Assembly (NCBI GenBank): GCA_010672825.2
Contig: JAAHFU020000002.1
Span: forward strand, 942,001-1,006,000
DNA length: 64,000 nt
Source of the DNA: Leptolyngbya sp. SIO1E4
GTDB taxonomy: Bacteria; Cyanobacteriota; Cyanobacteriia; Phormidesmidales; Phormidesmidaceae
Direction of reading: 5' to 3'
How positions within the stretch are numbered: position 1 is the first letter of the stretch; each line of letters starts with the position of its first letter. Below are positions 54,836 to 56,627 of this stretch, piece after piece. The notes below the pieces were generated by a model. The model was not told the origin of the DNA, ran no database searches, and saw only the letters and a program-made list of their open reading frames with translations. The position numbers and the translations under genes are program-made.

Positions 54836-56184
<1,349 letters not shown>

Positions 56185-56529
56185 TCATGCCATCTGAGCA
56201 TGATCGGCGAGGTTGGGAGAGATTCGACCGCTCCCTCGGTAGGCGACATCAAATGATACAGTCGTATCATTGTCAATACGGCCACTGCCCCGATGGGCAA
56301 AATTTGCTTTGTCGTTGTTGCGTTGACGGCCAGTTCCGCGATAGGCGATCGCACTTTCAGGTGGTAGTTCCTGGCTAGTAAGGCGACCGCTACCCCGATG
56401 TTGAGGGGTATCATCAACGATCGTATCTTCTACGAGTAAAGCAGCCCTGGTTGGAGCTATCATGGTGCTGAGGCACCCGAATGCCGCAGCAATTAGTAAA
56501 TATTTAGACAGATGGCGCAAGCAAAGCAT
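56185..56529 (-). CDS. patX: PatX-like secreted precursor with four RG(S/T)GR signal peptides
   Basis: 114 residues from the ATG at 56529 (AAGGGG about 13 bases upstream). A signal peptide occupies about 1-30 (LLIAAAFGCLSTMIAPTRA, cleavage after TRA or AA). The mature part has four HetR-inhibitory pentapeptides: RGSGR 45-49, RGTGR 64-68, RGSGR 80-84 and RGSGR 98-102. They are preceded by H44, Y63, H79 and Y97, and spaced 16-19 residues by polar linkers. RGSGR is the active part of PatS and HetN, and HRGTGR is that of PatX, whose genes are often beside hetR. Four copies would let one precursor yield several signals. Exact cleavage and activity are inferred. Confidence 0.9.
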   Translation of the reverse strand: MLCLRHLSKYLLIAAAFGCLSTMIAPTRAALLVEDTIVDDTPQHRGSGRLTSQELPPESAIAYRGTGRQRNNDKANFAHRGSGRIDNDTTVSFDVAYRGSGRISPNLADHAQMA

Positions 56530-56627
56530 TATTAGAAACCCCTTTGTGTGCTTCTATCTCCTGTTTCAAAGGGGGGGCTCGCTATTCAGGAAGGTTTGTT
56601 TGCGTATAAGTTCTGATCTTGAAAACT

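Follow-up and report, generated by a model that had tools for sequence, protein, structure and literature searches.

The locus analysed here raises the question of why one small protein, encoded next to hetR, should carry four RG(S/T)GR motifs preceded alternately by histidine and tyrosine, a residue that is reportedly irrelevant to HetR binding and yet is conserved copy by copy. The gene lies in the window, i.e. the whole stretch of 64,000 nucleotides of Leptolyngbya sp. SIO1E4 DNA that was analysed (Table 1). The initial annotation had read H, Y, H, Y before the pentapeptides and RGTGR in the second copy. Both were verified in the minus-strand open reading frame, and the span given, 56224-56397, is bounded precisely by the first R of copy 1 and the last R of copy 4. 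The linkers of 16-19 residues that had been described hold as start-to-start distances (19, 16 and 18 residues), the true stretches between hexapeptides being 13, 10 and 12 residues.

Table 1. Position of patX, its hexapeptides and the neighbouring features in the window
Feature	Position	Strand	Remarks
hetR	54836..55786	-	316 aa; 398 bases downstream of patX; PF03574 (Peptidase_S48), PF18460 (HetR_C)
patX	56185..56529	-	114 aa; signal-like hydrophobic N-terminus and four RG(S/T)GR hexapeptides
Presumed export signal	56443..56529	-	Residues 1-29; hydrophobic run, possible cut after PTRA; read by eye
Hexapeptide 1, HRGSGR	56383..56400	-	H kept in 8/8 clade genomes
Hexapeptide 2, YRGTGR	56326..56343	-	Y kept in 8/8 and T in 7/8 clade genomes
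Hexapeptide 3, HRGSGR	56278..56295	-	H kept in 8/8 clade genomes
Hexapeptide 4, YRGSGR	56224..56241	-	Y kept in 8/8 clade genomes
TCCTGA, DIF1-like promoter motif	56586..56591	-	62 bases upstream of the patX ATG
FAD oxidoreductase gene	58436-56628		Upstream of patX; ends 98 bp before patX

The protein displays the trait of the PatX family, an RG(S/T)GR motif in a small protein, here in four copies. It scores 28.5 bits (E 1.9e-6) against the NCBIfam equivalog model NF047413 (heterocyst_PatX) and does not reach the cut-off of 30. It is not assigned to this equivalog, and we read the cut-off as a limitation of the 69-position model. PatX, the RG(S/T)GR motif and the presence of H or Y before it are already known. 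For instance, PatX of Nostoc/Anabaena PCC 7120 is likewise a small protein with such a hexapeptide (HRGTGR) and acts on HetR; it is described as exported, export being required for its action, and as cut by the peptidase PatP (PMC12756182). However, it carries one hexapeptide in 56 aa, whereas the window protein, of 114 aa, carries four and has heads of two kinds. The 'Alternative PatS' paper (PMC5812504) also reports a Y/HRGSGR motif, and the text examined is silent on copies that repeat or alternate. PatS (ERGSGR) and HetN share the HetR-binding core but derive from other precursors, and PatS has E at position -1. Alternating or multi-copy PatX was absent from the titles and abstract openings searched; multi-copy forms may already be described in the founding PatX paper. 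The alternating four-copy PatX is a variant of this already known system. The product is probably an exported multi-copy precursor, with a presumed export signal at its N-terminus; a lipoprotein reading was rejected because the cysteine of the leader is not conserved among relatives, as judged by eye.

patX is located directly upstream of hetR, in the same direction, and hetR is its expected target. The HetR of the window passes the NCBIfam model NF009718 (556 bits for a cut-off of 489), and the 8.2-Mb genome contains two HetR_C matches. The gap between the FAD oxidoreductase gene and patX harbors the hexamer TCCTGA. The published DIF1 consensus is TCCGGA, from which TCCTGA differs by one base. 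A DIF1 motif is expected no further than about 69 nt upstream of patX genes, and the motif of the window, at -62, fits this distance. Of the 54 patX genes collected in the family, 51 could be assessed, and 49 of these have TCCTGA between -75 and -50. Of the 59 patX genes from outside the family, 55 have it between -80 and -40 and two have TCCGGA. TCCTGA may serve as a DIF1 site. It is TCCTGA, and not TCCGGA, that constitutes the DIF1-like motif of nearly all patX genes checked.

The family sample comprised 63 genomes (family f1), 59 of them with a HetR_C match, for which the region upstream of hetR was collected. When the 63 genomes were searched with the NCBIfam PatX model, none exceeded the cut-off, and a control genome gave a sub-threshold match; this search is too coarse, as it did not list the window's own PatX, although hmmscan gives it the score reported above. 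A whole-protein search retained 33 of 95 genomes at E up to 0.1, several of these matches being probably false (e.g. those within frames of 538 and 1588 residues), and was replaced by inspection of the region upstream of hetR. An RG(S/T)GR open reading frame was then found near hetR in 54 of the 59 genomes, so that patX occurs with hetR. Among the five others, the contig ends just upstream of hetR in G004, G017 and G020, and G003 and G008 have only a divergent HetR-like gene. Compared with NF047413, the 54 PatX proteins gave 28 matches at E up to 1, none reaching 30 bits, the window protein being the best and that of Leptolyngbya BL0902 scoring 11.0 bits. A 2025 survey based on Pfam and NCBI models with trusted cut-offs lists a Leptolyngbya with patP and hetR and without patX; a threshold effect may contribute to this missing gene.

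The order H-Y-H-Y occurs in all eight genomes of one group of the HetR tree: the window genome, six of genus g2 and one of g11. They include Oscillatoria sp. CS-180, Halomicronema sp. CCY15110, Leptolyngbya sp. SIOISBB and Leptolyngbyaceae T60_A2020_046. Support for this group is 93/75, short of the mark for a safe branch. It is nested in a well-supported group of 12, in which three other members have the PatX H-H-W, H-H-W and H-W; in the fourth, the contig ends and PatX was not found. Leptolyngbya PCC 6406 is a cultured relative with H-H-W. Across seven non-redundant clade genomes, identity is 100% at position -1 and 93-100% in the core, and falls to 37% at position -2 and to 18% at the residue that follows the motif. 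Among 84 comparisons of the -1 codons (four positions in the seven genomes), 24 differences were synonymous and none was non-synonymous, and all hexapeptide codons together give a pS of 0.68 versus a pN of 0.010; G036, near-identical to G027, was left out of these counts. Orthologous linkers are merely 22-37% identical within the clade. Since the order was held despite these diverged linkers and the high synonymous change, it reflects more than chance. The complete retention of the -1 residue, with zero non-synonymous change, indicates that the unit under selection is the hexapeptide [H/Y]-R-G-[S/T]-G-R with a copy-specific first residue. The order was probably fixed once, in the lineage of the window. 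Start-to-start spacing is 18-22 residues between copies 1 and 2, 16 in all eight genomes between copies 2 and 3, and 16-20 between copies 3 and 4. Hence, of what had been expected of relatives, a non-random residue before each motif is kept copy by copy, and spacing is conserved only between copies 2 and 3.

The initial annotation had also proposed that the alternation stems from ancient duplications of an H-type/Y-type unit. Under this model, linkers 1 and 3 should resemble each other, but their mean z is 0.06-0.10. Linkers 2 and 3 reach about 0.55, and true orthologues range over 0.9-2.8. The duplication therefore finds no support from the linkers of the H-Y-H-Y clade, in a test of low power in which even orthologous linkers 2-4 can barely be aligned (z 0.9-1.9). 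In G010, copy 3 has a core and a linker whose DNA nearly matches that of the core of copy 2 and of linker 2, which would also account for its copy 2 being RGSGR, copy 2 being RGTGR in seven of the eight genomes. The Y and H codons before these two copies are one base apart, yet they remain different. As the nearest relatives carry H-H-W and H-W, a single additional Y-type copy would also explain H-Y-H-Y; the order may stem from the gain of such a copy, from an H-Y pair that was duplicated or from losses in the relatives. Duplication of an H/Y unit looks to fit another case, the eight-copy PatX Y-Y-Y-H-Y-H-Y-H encoded on the minus strand in a genome of another family (locus L280, genome G220). 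This protein resembles the window PatX by its H/Y alternation, which is an independent one, and differs by its units of 10-11 residues and its alternating linkers, whose near-identical DNA is as expected for a recent tandem duplication of a two-motif unit.

Across the family, multiple copies are the rule, as 50 of the 54 PatX have two or more (range 1 to 9). Of these 50, 48 begin with a polar-headed copy (D, H, N or E) and 48 end with an aromatic-headed one (Y, W or F). The exceptions are G052 (F-F-F, cut off by a contig end) for the first copy, G005 (H-H) for the last one and G026 (Y-H) for both. H-Y-H-Y breaks this polar-first, aromatic-last order: apart from G026, the eight genomes that carry it are the only ones of the family in which an aromatic copy precedes a polar one. 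RGTGR is found in 14 of the 96 aromatic-headed copies of the family versus none of the 85 others (Fisher p 1e-4). However, a reading of the tree reduces this link to about four lineages and HRGTGR exists outside the family (L029, L248), so that no such link is claimed. Outside the family, 92 hetR regions were chosen, two of which were superseded by wider ones, and 59 of the resulting 90 loci gave a filtered PatX; the filter missed at least two (L227 and L262), and most heterocystous genomes fetched yielded none. Fifty-six of these 59 are single-copy (45 H, seven Y and four E) and three are multi-copy (Y-Y-Y, Y-Y-Y-Y-Y and that of L280). In single-copy PatX, H and Y swap even among close relatives (H in L272, Y in L273).

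Several other PatX and HetR proteins depart from these patterns. Two family loci (L150 and L151, in G033 and G002) encode nine RGSGR copies, seven D-headed followed by two Y-headed, with a period of 12 residues (15 for the last), and Ser replaces Glu254 in the HetR of both genomes. In genus g13, the HetR of all six genomes carries D256N and D278N; the PatX of G012, G020, G026, G031, G035 and G041 are D, none found, Y-H, H, H and D, respectively. In G197, a second PatX-like open reading frame (L298, contig C4) has six R(A/G)SGR motifs headed Y, Q, N, N, N and Y and lies on a different contig from the hetR-linked PatX (L282), which has one Y-headed copy.

The contact residues named for HetR-PatS6 (E253, E254, D256, D270 and D278; PMC4649674) and R223 (an R223W HetR reportedly no longer binds PatS; PMC7476756) are all present (Anabaena numbering) in the window HetR and in the eight clade genomes. 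According to Hu et al. 2015, the N-terminal amine of PatS6 is held by Glu254 and Asp256, only the backbone of the first residue is in contact with HetR, replacement of this residue having left affinity unchanged in earlier work, and a seventh residue should hinder binding (PMC4649674). The length of the active peptide (5, 6 or 8 residues) is not settled in the literature consulted, and the hexapeptide HRGTGR is reported to bind HetR at 88 nM (PMC12756182). The conserved hexapeptide, the PatS6 structure and the intact pocket together lead us to read the hexapeptide as the released unit. The precursor would be exported, and proteolysis outside the cytoplasm would then probably release two kinds of peptides with one core, H-type from copies 1 and 3 and Y-type from copies 2 and 4. 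Both would be expected to inhibit HetR about equally because the first residue contacts HetR via its backbone amine only. Since this residue reportedly has no effect on affinity, its copy-specific identity would be kept for a step other than binding. The peptidase might recognise this residue, which would directly follow the cut, or the residue might affect how long the peptide survives or how the next cell takes it up. We find a role at one of these stages (processing, which the initial annotation had also suggested, stability or uptake) more plausible than a difference in affinity.

Taken whole, this reading (a multi-copy precursor, released hexapeptides and a -1 residue kept for a step around the receptor) has, in our opinion, about an even chance of being right. 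Several points weigh against it. The variability of the -2 residue means that a strict cleavage signal is not visible, the H/Y swaps of single-copy PatX outside the family indicate that the constraint on -1 is not universal, and the eight-genome grouping lacks a safe branch. Furthermore, the literature text examined mentions no peptide from a multi-copy PatX, and, given what is reported for BL0902 (PMC11298460), of the same family, PatX of this family may act apart from HetR. A wider version of this reading would make multi-copy PatX of the family a prohormone-like precursor of two functionally distinct hexapeptides, polar-headed and aromatic-headed, the identity of the copies being selected for separate processing, transport or receptor use, and H-Y-H-Y being the arrangement of one lineage; we put it forward tentatively and consider it doubtful.

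Two other explanations appear unlikely, and about equally so. The H-type and Y-type peptides might differ in their affinity for HetR, as the initial annotation suggested, and form a graded or two-level inhibitor in which YRGTGR would be weaker or differently tuned. RGTGR and RGSGR have indeed been proposed to bind modified HetR differently (PMC7761841), and the published constants, which come from separate reports, differ: 88 nM for HRGTGR versus 7 nM for ERGSGR. However, the backbone-only contact of the first residue and its replacement without change of affinity in the HetR-PatS6 work (PMC4649674) speak against such a difference, and the residues of the pocket are constant throughout the clade. 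Alternatively, the four copies might only raise the yield, the H/Y order being a frozen by-product of the origin of the copies. The two residues are one transition apart (CAY/TAY) and interchange in single-copy PatX, as in L272 and L273, and family proteins carry between 1 and 9 copies. Nevertheless, the total lack of non-synonymous change at four positions in seven genomes, amid many synonymous ones, makes history alone unlikely, and in G010 Y and H have stayed distinct although the cores and linkers of copies 2 and 3 are near-identical in DNA.

Somewhat less probable still is that a HetR-like protein with Val replacing Glu254 acts as a second receptor beside HetR and that the two kinds of peptides are divided between them. 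In the 39 sequences of this second HetR examined (L165 and L312-L351, from 38 genomes, genus g7 being set aside), R223, E253 and D270 are kept in all 39, D256 and D278 in 38, and Val254 is found in 37. In the 51 family genomes scored, all 36 with the paralogue (including G009, which has Ala254) have a two-type PatX, and none of the five with a one-type PatX has the paralogue. However, 10 two-type genomes were scored without it (among them G014, whose second HetR_C match exists but was not fetched, and G029, 61% complete), and genera g3 and g7 are two-type without such a paralogue. Outside the family, G165 and G235 have several HetR_C matches and yet a single-copy H-type PatX. The tree offers two independent pairs, neither of them informative, so that two receptors for two peptides were rejected as a raw association with clear exceptions. 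No RG(S/T)GR open reading frame was found around the second HetR (L165) of the window genome.

Leptolyngbya BL0902, which we take to be G040, resembles the window in its family, in having patX directly upstream of hetR and in its predicted DIF1 promoter, G040 having a three-copy PatX preceded by TCCTGA. It differs by its first residues (D, I and Y), and deletion of its patX is reported to change expression largely independently of hetR (PMC11298460). On the strength of these transcriptomes, PatX of the family could work apart from HetR, its repeats binding another partner, but patX adjoins hetR and the core motif and the pocket are both preserved, which makes this very improbable.

In the clade, the sharp loss of conservation on either side of the hexapeptides means that evolution itself marks their boundary. 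Moreover, all 54 PatX collected in the family fall below the NCBIfam cut-off and would be missed by surveys that rely on this model. Finally, a single precursor that carries both kinds of head is a natural test set for the role of the residue before the motif.
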